Shown: one piece after another, positions 15,820 through 21,940 of the stretch
Layout of the letters: every line of letters begins with the position of its first letter
Numbering within the stretch: position 1 is the stretch's first letter
Virus record (IMG/VR): IMGVR_UViG_3300034198_009128
Span: 1-23,110 of that record
Source: a virus
Length of the DNA: 23,110 nt
Reading direction: 5' to 3' (one strand)
The notes under the pieces: model-generated
The model's database searches: none
The model's input: only the letters and a program-made list of their open reading frames with translations
What the model was told of the DNA's origin: nothing
Position numbers and translations under genes: made by a program

Positions 15820-15902
15820 TTCTTTACAGTTTCATTTTCGGCCATTTGTTTGGTCTTAACGTCCTTAATAGCCTCTAGTTGTTTGGGTGTCAATTTGTCC
15901 AT
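15816..15902 (-). CDS. 28-residue leader ORF coupled to the protease gene
   Basis: A short frame with an ATG at 15902 and TGA at 15816-15818, overlapping the protease ATG as ATGA. The peptide is MDKLTPKQLEAIKDVKTKQM plus AENETVKK: strongly charged and probably helical. It is the first ORF after the minus-strand -7 element at 15920-15927, with a leader of only about 10 nt. This makes it a candidate leader peptide or small head protein translated in the coupled operon. Its small size makes the coding call tentative; the ATGA coupling is the main support. Confidence 0.5.
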   Translation of the reverse strand: MDKLTPKQLEAIKDVKTKQMAENETVKK

Positions 15903-15919
15903 TGCTTACCTTTAAGCCT

Positions 15920-15927
15920 CAAAATTA
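15920..15927 (-). promoter_or_regulatory. -7 element for the protease-capsid operon (divergent with portal promoter)
   Basis: The minus strand reads TAATTTTG, an exact TAnnTTTG match, 18-25 bp before the ATG at 15902. A TTTG lies 14 nt further upstream, closer than the usual 19-21 nt, so the -33 box is weak. It sits 3 bp from the oppositely directed element of the portal gene. Confidence 0.55.
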
Positions 15928-15930
15928 TTA

Positions 15931-15938
15931 TAAATTTG
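15931..15938 (+). promoter_or_regulatory. -7 element for the inverted portal gene
   Basis: The plus strand reads TAAATTTG, an exact TAnnTTTG match, 21-28 bp before the portal ATG at 15959. No TTG at the ideal -33 distance is present; the nearest is 26 nt upstream. It is the only promoter-like element that could serve the plus-strand portal gene within this short gap. Confidence 0.55.
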
Positions 15939-15958
15939 TTGCAAATAAACTTTTTTCA

Positions 15959-17140
15959 ATGGATTTAATGACGAGGTTGCGCGGTTTGCTAGGATGGTCT
16001 AACCCAAATTATTACACAACTCAGCAAATTGGCGTTGTCTCTCCTGTATGGGTATCAACAACAGACAAGTTTGCCCTTTACTATGAAATCCCCGAGCTTC
16101 ACGCTGTGATTAATCGCTATGCAAAGATGGTGGCTTCGGCAAATCCAATGATTGTAAATGACAAAGGTGAGCGCATTGAGCCAAACGGCAACAACATCTT
16201 TGGATTGATTGACCGCCCTAACGCTATGCAGTCATGGGGAACCATGATTTACATGACAGCGGTGAATAAATGCGTTACAAATAACGCATTGATTTATGCT
16301 CCAATGGGCTCATTTGGTGCTAAACAGATGCTGCCTTTGTCGTTCAATAACGTCAAGATTGTGCCAACAGGCAAGAACCTCATCAGTGTAGATATGGGTA
16401 GCTTCATTGAGAAATTTCAAATACCTACATCGGTTGTTGATACGTATAAAGATTTTTATCCTCAGGATGTCATTTACCTAACCGAACCGGATGGTATTAA
16501 TTTGTTCAACACAAAGTCAAAGATTGACTCTTTGCGCTACCCTATCAGCAACCTAAAAAAGCAGTACGAAAAAAGAAATGTGCTACTTGCAAACCTCTTC
16601 AGTTTGGGTATTTTATCGAGCGATAACAAAGACGGTATCTCAGCTATGCCTTTAGAGCCTAAAGACATTAAGCAAATACGCGAAGACCTTAAGGCCAGGC
16701 ATTCAGGCGAGATTGTGGTAACTGATAAGCCTTTGAAGTTTGACCCAATGACATTTCCAACAAAAGATTTGATGCTTTTTGAGGAAATGACCGCCGATAA
16801 AATAGCCATCATTGATGAATACGGCCTGAACCAACACATGTTTGGTCAAGGTGAAGGCGGTAAAGGTTCCACATTTTCCAACGTTGAAATGGGGGAGCGT
16901 CAGGCGTACAACTCAACGATCATTCCCGACACACAAATCATGTACGATGAGTTTACAAAGCAACTCGGGCTCGATAAACAAGGTATGTACCTGGTTCCTG
17001 ACTTTTCGCACATATCGGTATTGAAAGCAGATGAGAAAAAAGATGCCGAATCATTGCTTAAACGTGCTGAGGCAGTGTCTAAAATCAACGAACTTACTCC
17101 ACTTAACACTGAGGAGATGCGCAAATTACTCGGAATCTAA
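15959..17140 (+). CDS. Phage portal protein (HK97-type), encoded on the opposite strand to its neighbours
   Basis: The portal is the dodecameric DNA gate of the head. I take the ATG at 15959 (MDLMTRLRGLLGWSNPNYYT, 393 residues), since the frame's earlier opening at 15887 lies upstream of the promoter element. The family landmarks are an N-terminal amphipathic stretch, the PELHAVINRYAKMVASANP core helix, LIDRPNAMQSWGTMIYM, the RNVLLANLFSLGILSSD segment and the C-terminal EMTADKIAIIDEYGLNQHMF plus STFSNVEMGERQAYNSTI. All fit the HK97-type portal of about 400 residues. It is the only confident plus-strand gene in the window: terL converges on it with a 15-bp overlap and the protease operon diverges from it. 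The identity is certain; the reason for the orientation is unknown. Confidence 0.95.
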   Translation: MDLMTRLRGLLGWSNPNYYTTQQIGVVSPVWVSTTDKFALYYEIPELHAVINRYAKMVASANPMIVNDKGERIEPNGNNIFGLIDRPNAMQSWGTMIYMTAVNKCVTNNALIYAPMGSFGAKQMLPLSFNNVKIVPTGKNLISVDMGSFIEKFQIPTSVVDTYKDFYPQDVIYLTEPDGINLFNTKSKIDSLRYPISNLKKQYEKRNVLLANLFSLGILSSDNKDGISAMPLEPKDIKQIREDLKARHSGEIVVTDKPLKFDPMTFPTKDLMLFEEMTADKIAIIDEYGLNQHMFGQGEGGKGSTFSNVEMGERQAYNSTIIPDTQIMYDEFTKQLGLDKQGMYLVPDFSHISVLKADEKKDAESLLKRAEAVSKINELTPLNTEEMRKLLGI

Positions 17141-18481
17141 GCTCGGCAAGAAAGCGTTTACCATCAATGCAAGACCCGTTGTTGCGTCGGGCGCATCATC
17201 ATTTTTATTCTTACCCTCTTTTTGATAGCCTTTAAGCTGGTGAATGTACTGCGCGTATTCGCCTATTGGCTCGGCTCTAAATCTAAATTTGCGCAGCACA
17301 TAGCTGCTATTCATCAGTATTCTGGTTTCCTTGTTTTGGTTGTTGATAATAGGCAAAATACCCGTCTTAGTTTCCTTACGCAAAGACTTCACGAATATTG
17401 CGCCCATGCCGTTGGTTTCGACACGACAATACGGCACTTTGTGTTTATTGAGTAGCTCGGCGCACATCGGAATAGTTACGTCAGTATTTGCCTTTGTGAA
17501 TACCACATCTGTAATGTACACGTCTTTATTGACCACATGGCCCAAAACCATGCAAAGATAGTCGTTACCCTCGTCAGCTACGTCAATGTAGGCAAATGCG
17601 CCTTGGCTGTGTTTATAAACCGCGTCAAGGTCTTTGAACGTGCGTAAGTGCTCAAATAAACGGCCTTTAATGTCAACAGGCTGCTGCATGTATTCGGCCA
17701 TCCAAATCTCCTCACGGGTCTTTTGGCGTTTACGCAAATACTCCTCGGTTGTCATTACAGCCTCACAAAAGGAATGCAACTCACCATCTTGCTCAATTAG
17801 TGCTGGCACAATGATTTGCTTATCGTAATAACCTTGCTCGGTATTTTTACCAATGACATCATCTCGGGTCCAACGCGTGCCAATATCAATCTCAGCGCAT
17901 CCGCTTTCTTTACGTGAATCATGTGTTGACTCTTTCCATGAGTGCGTTTTTTCGCGTATGGTTTCGCTCATTGCGTCCTCCATGGATTTAAAAAGGTCAT
18001 CGGTAATAGCTAACTTGCTTGCACCAAAACCAATAATTGTACCGCCAACGCCTCGGCCAAAATAACCGACTTGCTTTGAGTAATTAGTCGACCAAGCGTC
18101 AACACTACCTCGGTCATCCGATAGCCTTACTTCGGGAAATACCTGCATGAATTTTTCTGATCGCACAATGTCGCGTGCATCGTACGACAGTTTTTGAGCA
18201 AGAGTAGCAGTACAGGTGTTTCTCATTACGCTTTCAGTTGGATGCTTTCCAAGCGTCCAAGCACAAAACAATGAGGTTATGTAGGATTTACCTGCTCGGG
18301 GTGGTAATGACACTGCTAACGTTCTGATTTTTCCATCATCAACGTCCTGAAATGCTTGTGCAATTTCTTTGAGATATGGCCGTGATTTGAAGAACCTCCA
18401 ATCCATGTAATAACAAAAAGCCACAAAGTTAGACCTTGAAGCTATTTTTAATACAGGCGCTATTTCGTCATAATTTATCAA
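17126..18481 (-). CDS. terL: Terminase large subunit (ATPase and nuclease)
   Basis: The packaging motor of 451 residues. Walker A is PPRAGKS at 60-66, and a Walker B-like segment is KLAITDDLF at 156-164. The C-terminal nuclease domain has Asp300 in AYIDVADEGNDY, Glu355 in CRVETNGMG and the paired acids Asp428/Asp429 in KNDDAPDA, matching the RNase H-like catalytic triad. The start overlaps the putative small subunit gene by 14 bp. The stop (17126-17128) lies inside the last codons of the portal gene on the other strand. In most tailed phages the portal gene would follow in the same direction. It assembles on the portal and translocates and cuts DNA. The assignment is strong. Confidence 0.95.
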   Translation of the reverse strand: MINYDEIAPVLKIASRSNFVAFCYYMDWRFFKSRPYLKEIAQAFQDVDDGKIRTLAVSLPPRAGKSYITSLFCAWTLGKHPTESVMRNTCTATLAQKLSYDARDIVRSEKFMQVFPEVRLSDDRGSVDAWSTNYSKQVGYFGRGVGGTIIGFGASKLAITDDLFKSMEDAMSETIREKTHSWKESTHDSRKESGCAEIDIGTRWTRDDVIGKNTEQGYYDKQIIVPALIEQDGELHSFCEAVMTTEEYLRKRQKTREEIWMAEYMQQPVDIKGRLFEHLRTFKDLDAVYKHSQGAFAYIDVADEGNDYLCMVLGHVVNKDVYITDVVFTKANTDVTIPMCAELLNKHKVPYCRVETNGMGAIFVKSLRKETKTGILPIINNQNKETRILMNSSYVLRKFRFRAEPIGEYAQYIHQLKGYQKEGKNKNDDAPDATTGLALMVNAFLPSLDSE

Positions 18482-18881
18482 TCAACTTCTCGATTAGCTT
18501 TTCAGATAGCGGCTTTTCTGTTGGTGCTGTTTTTACGTCTACATCCATTTTTTGCTCTGCCTTACCAAATAGCCAGTCCCTATAATCAGCCATTAATCGG
18601 TGTCTAATTTGCTTGTTGTTTAGATCTATAATCAAAAGCCTAATCCAATACGGGTTTTCTTTTCCTGTAGCAAATTCTTTAAGGTCATCCTCTGTCATGG
18701 ACAGCAACAATCCAATCATATCGAAGTACTCCACTTTAGTTGGAACTTGATAACCTTTTAGCTTTATATCTGTTATATGGTCCGAATATGTTTTCTTTGG
18801 AGCTCCTTTAATATTCCTTCGGGAATCAACTCCTTTTTTGAATGGCTTAAGGCCTTTTGTATTCGGGTTTCTATTTGCCAT
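18468..18881 (-). CDS. Putative small terminase subunit
   Basis: A 137-residue basic protein directly upstream of terL, with a 14-bp overlap. The N-terminus (NPNTKGLKPFKKGVDSRRNI, then KGAPKKTYSDH) matches the basic DUF5681-like start often found in phage terminase small subunits. The middle is helical (YFDMIGLLLSMTEDDLKEFA), followed by LIIDLNNKQIRHRLMADYRD. The C-terminus is a Lys/Leu helix (LSEKLIEKLIDKL) that may contact TerL. Small terminases bind pac or cos sites and are poorly conserved, so position and the basic N-terminus are the main support. Confidence 0.7.
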   Translation of the reverse strand: MANRNPNTKGLKPFKKGVDSRRNIKGAPKKTYSDHITDIKLKGYQVPTKVEYFDMIGLLLSMTEDDLKEFATGKENPYWIRLLIIDLNNKQIRHRLMADYRDWLFGKAEQKMDVDVKTAPTEKPLSEKLIEKLIDKL

Positions 18882-18891
18882 TATATCTCAG

Positions 18892-19068
18892 TTATTTCAC
18901 AGTTGTTTTTTGCTGTTTTAAGTAGCTCATTTTGACATCAACCGCCTTTTCAAATGCTTTTAACTTGCTGATTTTGTTTAAGTTATAAGTGAAGCACTTG
19001 CCGTTTTCACCAAACTTATAGCCGCTCTTTCCATCAAAATTACACTCAATTATGGTAGGGTTTTCCAT
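18892..19068 (-). CDS. Small 58-residue phage protein before the terminase genes
   Basis: A short frame with an ATG at 19068 and TAA at 18892-18894. The protein starts MENPTIIECNFDGKSGYKFG, continues with ENGKCFTYNLNKISKL and ends in a helical Lys-rich stretch (KAFEKAVDVKMSYLKQQK). Its start overlaps the end of the methyltransferase gene by 23 bp, and it stops 10 bp before the small terminase start, so it fills the gap in the operon completely. Two Cys (9 and 25) are too few for a zinc finger. Function unknown. Confidence 0.65.
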   Translation of the reverse strand: MENPTIIECNFDGKSGYKFGENGKCFTYNLNKISKLKAFEKAVDVKMSYLKQQKTTVK

Positions 19069-20224
19069 TTTTTAGAATTTTTATACTCGGATCAACCTTA
19101 ATCATTCTGTCAACAATAACTTGGCAGTACTTCGGGTCAAACTCCACAAGATAGCCAATTCTTCCCATTTGATGAGATGCAACCATTGTTGTTCCTGAAC
19201 CACCAAATGCGTCGCAAACAATATCTCCTTTTTTAGATGAATTGTTTATTTGATAAGCAATCAAAGGTATTGGCTTCATTGTTGGGTGTTCTGCATTTCG
19301 TATTGGCTTGTCAAATTCAAGTATTGTTGTTTGCTTTCTATCCGAATACCACTTGTGAGAAGCGCCCTCCTTCCATCCATAAAGGCATGGCTCATGTTTC
19401 CATTGATAATCTTGGCGGCCCATAACCATTGTATTTTTTACCCAAATCAAGCATTGCTTTACCATGATGCCAGCGTCTTTCATTGCTCTTCTGAAGTTTG
19501 CGCCTTCTGAATCCGCGTGCCAAACGTACCATGCCCCCCCCGGTTTTGAATACTGACCAAGCGCAGAGTAGAAGTTAAAAAGGAATTGATAAAAATCAGA
19601 ATCTCCCATTGAATCGTTTTGAATTGTAAGCGCATCTTTTGTTTTACCTTCGTATGCTACGTTGTATGGCGGGTCGGTTACCACCAGATCTGCCATGGCG
19701 CCATTCATGAGCTTCTCAAATGTTTCGGGCAATGTGCTATCTCCACAAATCAATCTATGTTGGCCTATTTCAAAAATATCTCCAAGCATAATATCTGTTT
19801 GAACGTGATCAGGTAATTCAAAGTTGTCGTCTTCAACTTCGGATTCGTCTTCTTGGTTCATATCTGGAACATCCAAACCCCAAGCATCCAACTCTTCAGT
19901 ATCCCATTCGTTAGCTAACATATCCCAGTCCCATTCACCGCCTGAAACATTGTCTTTAATAATAAATTCGCGCTGTTGCTCTTCTGTAAGGTCATCTACA
20001 TAAATGATAGGAACTTCTTTTAGGCCTGCAGAAATCGAAGCTTTTAGGCGCATATTACCACCAAGAACGATCATGTCTTGGTTTACTACAATAGGTCGTA
20101 TTTCAAGCATTTTAGGAAATGCCTTGATTGATTCAACTAGCTTTTTGAATTTATCGTCCTTGATTACTCGCGGGTTATTTGGGTTATTTTTTACCTCGCT
20201 GATTTTTACTTTTTTCCATTCCAT
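19046..20224 (-). CDS. ParB-like domain fused to N6/N4 DNA methyltransferase
   Basis: A 392-residue two-domain protein. Residues 1-100 are a ParB/Srx-type domain: VKISEVKNNPNNPRVI at the start and VVNQDMIVLGGNMRLKASIS with the GGNMRL box at 55-60. Residues about 145-385 are an amino-methyltransferase. Catalytic motif IV DPPY is at 184-187, HPTMKP at 313-318, and the SAM-binding DAFGGSGTT at 338-346. The motif order (catalytic before SAM) fits the beta class. It would methylate adenine or cytosine amino groups, perhaps to protect phage DNA from host restriction or to mark packaging sites (inference). The ParB-methylase fusion is a known phage and mobile-element arrangement. No partner restriction enzyme is visible. 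It starts 4 nt after the preceding gene's end. Confidence 0.92.
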   Translation of the reverse strand: MEWKKVKISEVKNNPNNPRVIKDDKFKKLVESIKAFPKMLEIRPIVVNQDMIVLGGNMRLKASISAGLKEVPIIYVDDLTEEQQREFIIKDNVSGGEWDWDMLANEWDTEELDAWGLDVPDMNQEDESEVEDDNFELPDHVQTDIMLGDIFEIGQHRLICGDSTLPETFEKLMNGAMADLVVTDPPYNVAYEGKTKDALTIQNDSMGDSDFYQFLFNFYSALGQYSKPGGAWYVWHADSEGANFRRAMKDAGIMVKQCLIWVKNTMVMGRQDYQWKHEPCLYGWKEGASHKWYSDRKQTTILEFDKPIRNAEHPTMKPIPLIAYQINNSSKKGDIVCDAFGGSGTTMVASHQMGRIGYLVEFDPKYCQVIVDRMIKVDPSIKILKNGKPYHN

Positions 20225-20227
20225 AAT

Positions 20228-20467
20228 TTACCTTTTTTTCACCAATCGAAACATCTTTACAAGCATTCTCGCTTTCTTTTGCTTTGGGTGCTGATTGATT
20301 ACTTCAAGCAATTGCGGGTATAAAGGCAGGCGAGAAATAGAGCGGTTGAAATTGCGGTCGGTCATGGCTCCATGTGCAACAATGCGGCCGATTCTTTCGT
20401 ATTGTTCACGCTTTAATTCGGCGCGGTCTTTGGGTTTTTTCTTGAATAGTGCTTTAAAAAATTGCAT
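20228..20467 (-). CDS. Small basic hypothetical protein
   Basis: I take the ATG at 20467 (MQFFKALFKKKPKDRAELKR, 79 residues), because the longer frame from 20521 would overlap the preceding gene by 68 bp. The chosen start overlaps it by only 14 bp, as elsewhere in the operon. The protein is very rich in Lys and Arg (C-terminus RMLVKMFRLVKKR), with a central helical part (YPQLLEVINQHPKQKKAR). This suggests nucleic-acid binding, but no fold is recognised. It ends 3 nt before the methyltransferase start and should be co-translated with it. Confidence 0.65.
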   Translation of the reverse strand: MQFFKALFKKKPKDRAELKREQYERIGRIVAHGAMTDRNFNRSISRLPLYPQLLEVINQHPKQKKARMLVKMFRLVKKR

Positions 20468-20705
20468 TGTAAGTGTATTTGATGAGGTGATAAAATAAAA
20501 TAATGATTGCTGAGGTTGCAAAGCGGTAACCGGTGATTATCCAAACCCATTTTTTTGGATTGGTTGATTGCTTTAAATGCCATTCATTGGTGATAAACCA
20601 AAATATTTTGAGCGTGATGTTGTCGGAAATATGAAAGTAAATAAGCGCCAGCATTGACAAAATACCGCCGATTGCGATTGCTATTTTTTTAATGATTTTA
20701 ATCAT
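20454..20705 (-). CDS. Small membrane protein with two predicted transmembrane segments
   Basis: An 83-residue protein. The first hydrophobic segment is about residues 8-25 (AIAIGGILSMLALIYFHI), preceded by positive charges (MIKIIKK). The second is about residues 53-78 (WVWIITGYRFATSAIIILFY and following). The loop between them is polar (NEWHLKQSTNPKKW). It starts 2 nt after the ParB-like gene's end and lies in the packaging operon, so it is a phage protein. It might act in superinfection exclusion or as a holin-like protein. No lysin is nearby, and function cannot be decided. Confidence 0.65.
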   Translation of the reverse strand: MIKIIKKIAIAIGGILSMLALIYFHISDNITLKIFWFITNEWHLKQSTNPKKWVWIITGYRFATSAIIILFYHLIKYTYNAIF

Positions 20706-20707
20706 GT

Positions 20708-21457
20708 CTAATGAATAATGATGCGGTTTTTTGCGCGGTGATTAATTATCTGCTCCATTTCCTGAATGATTGTTTTGACTGTCTTAACGGATTCAATGCG
20801 CATGCCTGTTTCCTCTAGTTTACGCAACATTTGTGAATGATCGTAAAGCCCGTTTGACTGGAGCTGCATCATGACTAAAAAGAAACGCGAGCTGAAAGGA
20901 TTGTCAGTGTATGGCTTTAGAGTTTGCAAGGTGTTGGCTAGAGAGTAACTAAACGCCATGTGTTTATCGCTCAGGTTGCCATCTCTGAAATGCTCAATTG
21001 CGGCGCCGTCTTGTGGAGTTCCTGAATGAAACATTTTGATTGCCGTGTTTAAGCTAATGCCGTGAAATTCATTGATGAAATTTTGCAGCGCCAAATATGC
21101 GGGTTTTTTCAAATCCAAATAGCTGTTCAGAAAGTCCACGTTGCGCCACTTGGTGTGATTGCTATTTATTGTTGGCACAATGCTAAGCGTTGCCTCTTTG
21201 TGCATGACGTAATACACGTTGGTTCTAAGCTGCATTGATACAGTGAAACGATGCTGGCCATCGATTATTTCCATGTCTTCATTTACGATAATTGGCGCGT
21301 ATCGCAGCACGTCAACACCAGCTTCAATAACCTCTTTAATTTTATTGACCTTGGATTCATTGATGTCGCGGTTACCTTTCAAGAATTTGAAGCGCCCGTA
21401 ATCGGTTGTGTAGTAAATTTTTGTGTTTGATTCGACATGGTTAAAAGTAACATCCAT
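20708..21457 (-). CDS. ParB-like nuclease-domain protein
   Basis: A 249-residue protein. Residues about 25-95 form a ParB-type domain: NRDINESKVNKIKEVIEAGV, the PIIVNEDMEIIDGQHRF segment with the GQHRF box near residues 66-70, and a following hydrophobic strand. The C-terminal region (about 100-249) is helical, with Phe/Met-rich segments (FFLVMMQLQSNGLYD), and is typical of phage ParB-like proteins rather than chromosome-partition ParB; no ParA partner is present. It is the first gene of the packaging unit, downstream of the -7 element at 21484-21491. This second ParB-type domain three genes from the ParB-methylase is notable. Function may be DNA binding, CTP binding or nuclease; I cannot decide. 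Confidence 0.8.
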   Translation of the reverse strand: MDVTFNHVESNTKIYYTTDYGRFKFLKGNRDINESKVNKIKEVIEAGVDVLRYAPIIVNEDMEIIDGQHRFTVSMQLRTNVYYVMHKEATLSIVPTINSNHTKWRNVDFLNSYLDLKKPAYLALQNFINEFHGISLNTAIKMFHSGTPQDGAAIEHFRDGNLSDKHMAFSYSLANTLQTLKPYTDNPFSSRFFLVMMQLQSNGLYDHSQMLRKLEETGMRIESVKTVKTIIQEMEQIINHRAKNRIIIH

Positions 21458-21483
21458 AGCGCATTATTTTAGGTTATTCACAT

Positions 21484-21491
21484 CAAAGGTA
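21484..21491 (-). promoter_or_regulatory. Bacteroidota -7 element for the ParB-terminase operon
   Basis: The minus strand reads TACCTTTG, an exact TAnnTTTG match, 27-34 bp before the ATG at 21457. It begins at the end of the T tract of the upstream terminator, so one operon stops and the next starts within about 40 bp. A clear -33 TTG at standard spacing is missing. Confidence 0.55.
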
Positions 21492-21522
21492 AATAAAAAG
21501 CCAATCCGATTGAATTGGCTTT
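21491..21522 (-). terminator. Intrinsic terminator after the early/accessory block
   Basis: On the minus strand AAAGCCAAT (21522-21514) pairs with ATTGGCTTT (21505-21497) around an 8-nt loop. It is followed by TTATTT, so the T-rich tail is continuous with the stem. It lies 8 bp after the stop of the 136-residue gene and immediately before the -7 element of the next operon. It separates the early/accessory block from the packaging block. Confidence 0.8.
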
Positions 21523-21529
21523 GAGGTTG

Positions 21530-21940
21530 TTACTTATTTCTATTGCGAAATTCATAAATTATTCGCGTTGCTTTTTGAAGTGAAATATATTCAATAGGAA
21601 CGCCACAAACAAAAATCCTGAGCTGATGCGTTTCAATATCCCATTCAATAATGAACTCCTTTGATTCAAAATTGACAAGAAAATACGGATAGCCGTGTTC
21701 ATTCTCGAAAGCCTCATCGCTAGCCTCTTCACGTTTAAAGCCTATTGCGATTACCTCTTCATAGGTTGGGGTTAGTTGCTTCCTGCGCTCTTCAATGGTT
21801 TTATCATTGAGCTCACTTTGTGAATCCGCAAAAATTGGTTTAATAGTCGATGTGTAATTGTTGCGGTTTTTGTAAATTATTTCACGAAGTTTTTGCATTT
21901 GCTTTTCCTGCCATTCTCTTACTTGTTCTTGTGCTGCCAT
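21530..21940 (-). CDS. Hypothetical protein, last gene of the early/accessory block
   Basis: A 136-residue soluble protein. The N-terminus is a Gln/Glu/Arg-rich helix (AAQEQVREWQEKQMQKLREI). The C-terminal half appears as mixed beta strands and helix (YPYFLVNFESKEFIIEWDIE, then HQLRIFVCGVPIEYISLQKA). No motif is recognised. It is the last gene before the terminator at 21491-21522. It starts 17 bp after the HTH gene's stop and so is co-transcribed with it. Function unknown. Confidence 0.7.
   Translation of the reverse strand: MAAQEQVREWQEKQMQKLREIIYKNRNNYTSTIKPIFADSQSELNDKTIEERRKQLTPTYEEVIAIGFKREEASDEAFENEHGYPYFLVNFESKEFIIEWDIETHQLRIFVCGVPIEYISLQKATRIIYEFRNRNK

Follow-up and report, generated by a model that had tools for sequence, protein, structure and literature searches.

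A ParB-methyltransferase fusion of the ParB-Tls class precedes the terminase genes of a tailed phage and probably protects its DNA before packaging

IMG/VR virus record IMGVR_UViG_3300034198_009128 is a 23,110-base part of a tailed-phage genome with portal, capsid and tail genes; this whole stretch is referred to here as the window. An initial annotation had pointed out two ParB-type open reading frames (ORFs) near the terminase genes, one of them fused to a DNA methylase. Both ORFs are present and open (Table 1), and the fusion to a methylase is borne out by Pfam, PHROGs and a structure model. We find that the fusion locus belongs to the already published ParB-Tls class and that the fusion's tie to the terminase is real. 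In the reading that we favour, and consider probable, the fusion is an orphan methyltransferase of the ParB-Tls type that protects phage DNA from restriction before packaging, and the stand-alone ParB is separate from it. Protection of DNA before packaging, one of the roles offered in the initial annotation, is thus the best-supported reading, in line with PMC6536676 and PMC4190342.

The fusion matches phrog_498 with an E-value (E) of 2e-145. Its ParB_N domain matches the ParB structure 7bnk in the PDB (phmmer, E 9e-7), and a PADLOC match to MTase_II spans residues 3-376. When the methylase part of an AlphaFold model was compared by Foldseek, it matched beta-class N4-cytosine and N6-adenine methylases (8s9m, E 1.5e-15; CcrM 6pbd, E 1.4e-14). 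The motif DPPY at residues 184-187 precedes GGSGTT at 341-346, and both are intact and conserved in alignments of 20 and 30 sequences. We take the former to be the catalytic motif and the latter the S-adenosylmethionine (SAM)-binding motif, in the permuted order of beta-class methylases. Given that DPPY is typical of adenine methylases, N6-methyladenine is the likelier predicted product. Arg59, within GGNMR, is invariant in the 30-sequence alignment and at least 90% conserved in the more diverse 20-sequence alignment; by our own reading of the motif, it may be the P-motif/Box II arginine that the ParB-CTPase fold needs for nucleotide binding.

These features allow us to propose a mechanism. 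The fusion would act as an orphan exocyclic-amino DNA methyltransferase (adenine-N6 or cytosine-N4), with the N-terminal ParB domain most likely serving as a nucleotide-controlled DNA-loading module. Expressed together with the terminase genes, it would methylate a short motif in phage DNA before or during packaging, and the methylated progeny genomes would then resist restriction in the next host. M.SpyI was considered as a member of the family and rejected: it is a C5-cytosine methylase encoded by orf12 of phi1207.3, where the ParB-methyltransferase is orf32 (PMC4260502).

Earlier reports on ParB-Tls loci cover the fusion, its position by the terminase and the idea of modification during packaging, and we therefore assign the locus to this known class. 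PMC6536676 describes 36 methylases from Paracoccus prophages that bear a ParB domain at the N terminus and without exception lie upstream of the terminase. It takes the term ParB-Tls locus, ParB-methyltransferase fusions included, from Iyer et al. 2013 (NAR 41:7635), and restates the proposal that DNA is modified under the direction of ParB while it is packaged. As there, the window has ParB_N and N6_N4_Mtase in one ORF, and this modifying gene lies upstream of the candidate small terminase subunit (TerS) and the large subunit (TerL); we see no essential difference from the locus as described in PMC6536676. Features of the window that go beyond that description are an upstream stand-alone gene whose ParB-fold product belongs to another family, and the small ORF that separates the fusion from the TerS candidate. 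The idea in the initial annotation is accordingly close to the published one, save for the pairing of two ParBs. Kaljevic et al. 2025 (PMC12704722) report that the same domain pair, with N6_N4_Mtase joined to a ParB-CTPase fold, is enriched in phages and prophages and perhaps serves anti-defence; the word 'terminase' is absent from the main text. N6N4-methyltransferase fusions are among their candidates for nucleotide-binding tests, and ATP binding is stated, in the sections covered, for a bacterial SAM-dependent methyltransferase fusion only. Packaging-module methylases of lactococcal 936 phages are likewise orphans, and protection against HphI and DpnII has been shown for such lactococcal phage enzymes; unlike the fusion, they lie between terS and terL, and the covered sections do not mention a ParB domain (PMC4190342). 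ParB-domain proteins of unknown function also occur beside another phage DNA-modifying enzyme (PMC12783734). The covered parts of a Streptococcus equi methylome paper hold nothing on the fusion family. The window adds the phage of a probable Bacteroidota host, judging from its gene set (DUF4494) and its relatives, to the ParB-Tls class, and the comparisons below supply controlled numbers for the terminase linkage.

To quantify this linkage, we compared the best 80 of at least 598 confirmed fusion relatives from viral contigs with two other sets: 80 of 435 loci of a ParB-less phage methylase, serving as control, and 80 of 476 stand-alone ParB loci. TerL was detected by iterative searches from 30 seeds, and counts within 800 bp required at least 1,250 bases downstream. 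Among fusion loci, 69 of 76 had a same-strand TerL starting no more than 800 bp downstream; the corresponding counts were 6 of 68 for the control and 0 of 65 for the stand-alone ParB. The conserved linkage of both ParB genes to the terminase, set beforehand as a check in the initial annotation, therefore holds for the fusion and fails for the stand-alone gene. For the latter, a TerL lay within 1.5 kb in 10 of 62 loci, all ten within the record's own clade. An ORF of at least 300 amino acids (aa) was found downstream in 71 of the 80 fusion loci; five ran short of DNA, and four had none in reach, including L037 (loci carry L numbers), where TerL comes after a second methylase copy. Single linkage placed 69 of these 71 ORFs in one TerL cluster, those of L006 and L016 not being TerL. 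When 18 representative downstream ORFs were run against PHROGs, 16 had a match to phrog_2; among the 19 families listed for these ORFs, 17 carry the name 'terminase large subunit'.

Several observations weigh against this picture. The counted fusion loci are related to each other and represent the best 80 of the larger set. Among 80 of at least 579 bacterial-genome loci, which hold more distant fusion relatives (40-53% identity), TerL lay within 800 bp in only 10 of 69, against 35 of 52 for a distance of 5 kb; TerL was not found upstream of the fusion in these 80. The control methylase has TerL within 5 kb in 21 of 39 loci, so loose proximity to TerL is not special to ParB. Among annotated genomes, AcaML1 has seven genes between fusion and terminase, and in Gordonia phage Jambalaya and three gut phages the two are nonadjacent or their relation is unclear. 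The tight arrangement is a trait of the record's fusion subfamily and of some others.

The annotated records comprised 12 of 60 'spread' rows, chosen by us and not at random, together with three fusion matches (one unannotated) and two stand-alone ParB matches. The fusion precedes the terminase, with zero to two small genes plus TerS between, in Lactobacillus CV244, Latilactobacillus TMW 1.2272 P1 and Verrucomicrobia P8625. The same order is seen in Porphyromonas 030a, where only the methylase part was matched, in Staphylococcus CUB-EPI_14, where it spans the start of the circular record, and in archaeal HSTV-1, provided that the ends of the linear map join. Several genes separate the two in Javan639, phiStag1 and AcaML1, and in Javan492 the methylase is split into two pieces ahead of the terminase. 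Streptococcal phiStag1 (L187, 3363-8016) has a SAM synthetase, HNH, HTH, ParB-methyltransferase and C5 methylase gene in a row before the terminase.

We evaluated how far the terminase genes change beside the fusion, using 67 rows including the record and a quick tree with many weak forks. Left out were L006 and L016, L023 and L062 with their split methylase frames, L015, in which no TerS ORF was picked, and nine loci without an ORF. The TerLs form one cluster through intermediates, as one would expect of members of a single superfamily, and 'divergent' here means that a pair gives no BLASTP match at E 1e-5 covering 70% of the shorter protein. By this measure, fusion pairs of 70-80% identity had no TerL match in 72% of cases and no TerS match in 55%. 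At 80-90% identity, similarity was missing for TerL in 53% and for TerS in 31%, and at 90-99% (n=47) for TerL in 38% and for TerS in 4%. TerS is thus kept with the fusion longer than TerL; it is also the nearer gene. The TerLs beside the fusion fall into 12 types at 40% identity. On the fusion tree these types need no fewer than 19 changes, where shuffling gives a mean of 32.7, and they are thus clustered yet often exchanged. TerS falls into four groups (49, 14, 3 and 1 of 67) with eight changes. Given how highly divergent the TerLs are, the position of the fusion is kept while its partners change. The notion that the methylase always accompanies one TerS family was not upheld, given these four groups and eight changes, though close fusions mostly keep their TerS.

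This turnover bears on a different role for the methylase, in which it would methylate sites in or near pac or cos and TerS would cut methylated DNA only. The tight position of the fusion next to TerS and TerL at most of the loci is compatible with such gating, as are the longer retention of TerS, nearer as it is, and the fact that the record's clade pairs the methylase with a TerS candidate different from that of its sister phages. There is also the precedent of phage P1, whose pac cleavage is reported to be methylation-dependent (Sternberg and Coulby 1990, via PMC4190342). P1 likewise ties methylation to packaging, but through GATC methylation of a defined pac site, for which nothing comparable is seen in the record. 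Against gating stand the frequent absence of similarity between TerS or TerL genes beside fusions of 70-80% identity, the repeated changes of both on the fusion tree, the sister phages that do without the fusion, and a search of 18300-21600 that found no inverted repeats. Murphy et al. (PMC4190342) deemed a regulatory role of packaging-module methylases unlikely. We regard methylation-gated packaging as improbable. Recognition or marking of the packaging site, also proposed in the initial annotation, is a lesser possibility. Site-specific co-adaptation is at odds with the dissimilar terminases often seen beside 70-80% identical fusions, even if TerS is for the most part retained where fusions are very similar.

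Comparison with close relatives shows where the fusion sits. The sister phage L083 shares two flanking blocks with the window at 90% and 92% DNA identity (BLASTN); homology runs to the base before the fusion start and resumes at the TerL start. Between these breakpoints L083 has one 184-aa TerS (Pfam Sf6_terminase, E 1e-24), without the fusion, the 58-aa ORF or the 137-aa TerS candidate. From a set of TerL relatives (79 of 126 loci), 26 have a TerL starting beyond base 900: 20 carry the L083-type TerS and no fusion near TerL, L004 has the fusion with the record-type TerS candidate, and five have neither arrangement. The same slot, ahead of TerS, is empty or otherwise occupied in some relatives, with a gene of 294-302 aa in L105, L106, L109 and L110 (that of L110 matching 'DNA repair exonuclease') and one of 610-611 aa in L103 and L104. 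In L103 (4570-6402) and L104 (1549-3384) an intein-like insert of about 300 residues in this exonuclease-like gene was seen by eye, the gene being uninterrupted in L105, L109 and L110.

Such traffic could mean that the slot is no more than a hotspot where cargo inserts between the early module and the packaging module, functionally unrelated to packaging. Slots that are empty or hold an exonuclease-like gene agree with this, and Murphy et al. (PMC4190342) label the packaging module an insertion hotspot. However, the methylase without ParB is seldom in the exact slot (6 of 68), and the ParB core is found there again beside a different modification chemistry. We consider a mere hotspot unlikely, while granting it some weight, and retain the reading of the fusion as a protective methyltransferase.

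The other chemistry was found in L121, a TerL relative, where a fusion-type ParB core without methylase is followed by a DpdA-type (queuine tRNA-ribosyltransferase-like) protein, then by QueD, QueE and GTP cyclohydrolase genes, and finally by a TerS candidate and TerL. A search with the L121 DpdA-type protein gave eight loci, one on L121's own contig. The ParB core lies directly upstream of the DpdA-type gene in 8/8, and TerS-TerL ends the cluster in all four loci that are long enough. Because L350-L355 are near-copies, the loci represent about three independent lineages. The ParB core with a DpdA-type 7-deazaguanine cluster directly before TerS-TerL is present in L348 (2275-9000) and L349-L351, where the ParB gene and the DpdA gene share 14 bases. 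In L122 (5462-6031) a 189-aa ParB core, with no methylase attached, lies about 0.9 kb ahead of TerL.

The cores, tails and DpdA-type proteins have differing histories. L349 and L350 are 91% identical in their DpdA-type proteins and 85% in their ParB tails, but only 64% in their ParB cores, and each of the two cores shares 79-80% identity with a different one of the methylase-fused cores. Such a pattern fits recombination of ParB cores between the methylase and DpdA chemistries, an exchange that appears to have occurred. Consistent with this, a core tree (six of the eight DpdA loci, 117 columns) has at least two partner changes on well-supported branches. It is conceivable, though we put it forward tentatively, that the ParB core serves as an interchangeable loading cassette. 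Depending on its partner, it would bring to DNA awaiting packaging either a methylase or a DpdA-type guanine transglycosylase that comes with its own precursor pathway. A ParB core with a DpdA-type cluster in the methylase slot may be new, and offers a testable case of one ParB core serving two DNA-modification chemistries.

The stand-alone protein matches phrog_12305, 'ParB-like partition protein' (E 5e-26). It has no ParB_N match in Pfam, where GmrSD_N (E 0.0017) and DUF7143 score below threshold, no match to a known defence family in PADLOC and no significant match among PDB sequences. Its AlphaFold model (predicted local distance difference test score 83) places residues 13-101 on ParB 7bnk (VIA Z 10.9, root-mean-square deviation 2.0, 85 residues), and by this model the protein has a ParB-CTPase fold. 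The DGQHR-type motif IDGQHR is invariant across 26 aligned sequences. Within 3.5 kb of the 80 stand-alone ParB loci, the commonest neighbour clusters are an ERF annealing protein (49), an exonuclease (39) and NinG (27), each identified from one representative. Upstream of the gene L083 encodes an SMC/SbcC-like ATPase, RecT and a metallo-beta-lactamase-fold protein, and the record begins inside the last of these. The phrog_12305 proteins of Flavobacterium phage lillamy9 and pneumococcal IPP69, with 25-28% identity to the record's protein, are encoded in early regions near single-strand-binding, recombination or methylase genes, whereas in the record's clade the gene lies just before the terminase segment. 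Given these neighbours, the protein probably belongs to the adjoining recombination module (RecT or ERF plus exonuclease), as an accessory, we infer, of phage recombination or replication. As a packaging marker it is weakened as a candidate by the same neighbours and by the absence of TerL within 800 bp.

The initial annotation had treated the two ParBs as a pair, which they are not obligately: sister phages hold the stand-alone ParB without the fusion, and both occur in 6 of the 80 stand-alone loci, the fusion lying several kilobases downstream. In four of these loci the fusion is 328-330 bp before TerL, with the stand-alone gene kilobases upstream; the two genes can thus share a genome yet occupy different modules. 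Eight further loci have a methylase related to the fusion but without the ParB core. Conversely, no genuine stand-alone ParB ORF was found in the 80 fusion loci, a weak negative because only 32 of them extend at least 3 kb upstream; the two ParB matches, in L023 and L062, come from the N-terminal parts of fusions that are split. These observations bear on whether the ParB-Tls locus has its ParB partner in the stand-alone protein, which would load with the fusion onto the same DNA. Its place three genes before the fusion, behind a hairpin found in relatives and possibly in one transcript, would suit a partner, as would the 6 loci with the fusion and the 8 with a related ParB-less methylase. Its retention in sister phages without the fusion, its membership of another family with ERF and exonuclease neighbours and, more weakly, its absence from the fusion loci speak against partnership, to which we give little credence. 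Our preferred reading keeps the genes apart: the methylase probably does not need the stand-alone ParB, and the analysis separates two ParB-fold genes that resemble a pair without necessarily being one.

Table 1. Features around the fusion gene (coordinates are positions in the window)
Feature	Position	Strand	Evidence or remark
TerL (terminase large subunit)	17126..18481	-	phrog_38 E 1e-80; Pfam Terminase_6C E 8e-8
TerS candidate, 137 aa	18468..18881	-	phrog_15125 (function unknown) E 8e-5; no Pfam match
Segment at whose place L083 has a single Sf6-type TerS	18479..20225	-	BLASTN homology ends at both points
58-aa ORF between fusion and TerS candidate	18892..19068	-	overlaps 3' end of fusion
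ParB-methylase fusion, 392 aa	19046..20224	-	Pfam, phrog_498, PADLOC, AlphaFold/Foldseek
N6_N4_Mtase domain of fusion, residues 179-371	19112..19690	-	Pfam PF01555 E 3e-23
ParB_N domain of fusion, residues 4-93	19946..20215	-	Pfam PF02195 E 5e-8
Small ORF, 79 aa	20228..20467	-	methylase-TerS segment starts right after
Small ORF, 83 aa, between both ParB genes	20454..20705	-	retained in relatives
Stand-alone ParB-CTPase-fold protein, 249 aa	20708..21457	-	phrog_12305, structure model
Terminator-like hairpin, 5' of stand-alone ParB	21497..21522	-	

As first annotated, the fusion is the third gene downstream of the stand-alone ParB, and is followed by the 58-aa ORF, the TerS candidate and TerL. 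The statement that the stand-alone gene opens the operon stands in part: a terminator-like hairpin precedes it, so it may be co-transcribed with the methylase and terminase, but same-strand genes are also present upstream. Five of six relatives checked, L192 being the exception, have a matching hairpin some 66 bp ahead of ParB, and that of L083 has one compensatory pair change (T-A to C-G, by eye). The small ORF between fusion and TerS candidate has 53-aa homologues at six other fusion loci (L004, L057, L061, L071, L078 and L079). The TerS role of the 137-aa protein is suggested by gene position. In iterative searches it clusters with small genes preceding TerL in relatives, and one member of this group, a gene of L039, is Pfam DUF5681 (E 2e-16), the grouping being distant.

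The initial annotation was also right that ParA and a partition site are not visible. No ParA and no above-threshold restriction enzyme were matched among the scanned ORFs of this 23-kb fragment, a scan that left aside some small ORFs, and within the fragment no parS-like site was found with up to three mismatches to the parS consensus; the ParA partner and parS site of a ParABS partition system are thus missing from what was scanned. Two weak direct repeats lie near TerS. GC content is 0.397 in the fusion, 0.436 in TerL and 0.418 in the record, with no sharp foreign signature.

The portal gene (15887-17140, plus strand; Pfam Phage_portal, E 2e-26) lies on the strand opposite to TerL and capsid. 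Three short inverted-repeat pairs were found at the portal, all within the gene and none flanking it. The inversion is common to 29 of 33 TerL-relative loci, three others having a same-strand portal and one no portal match.

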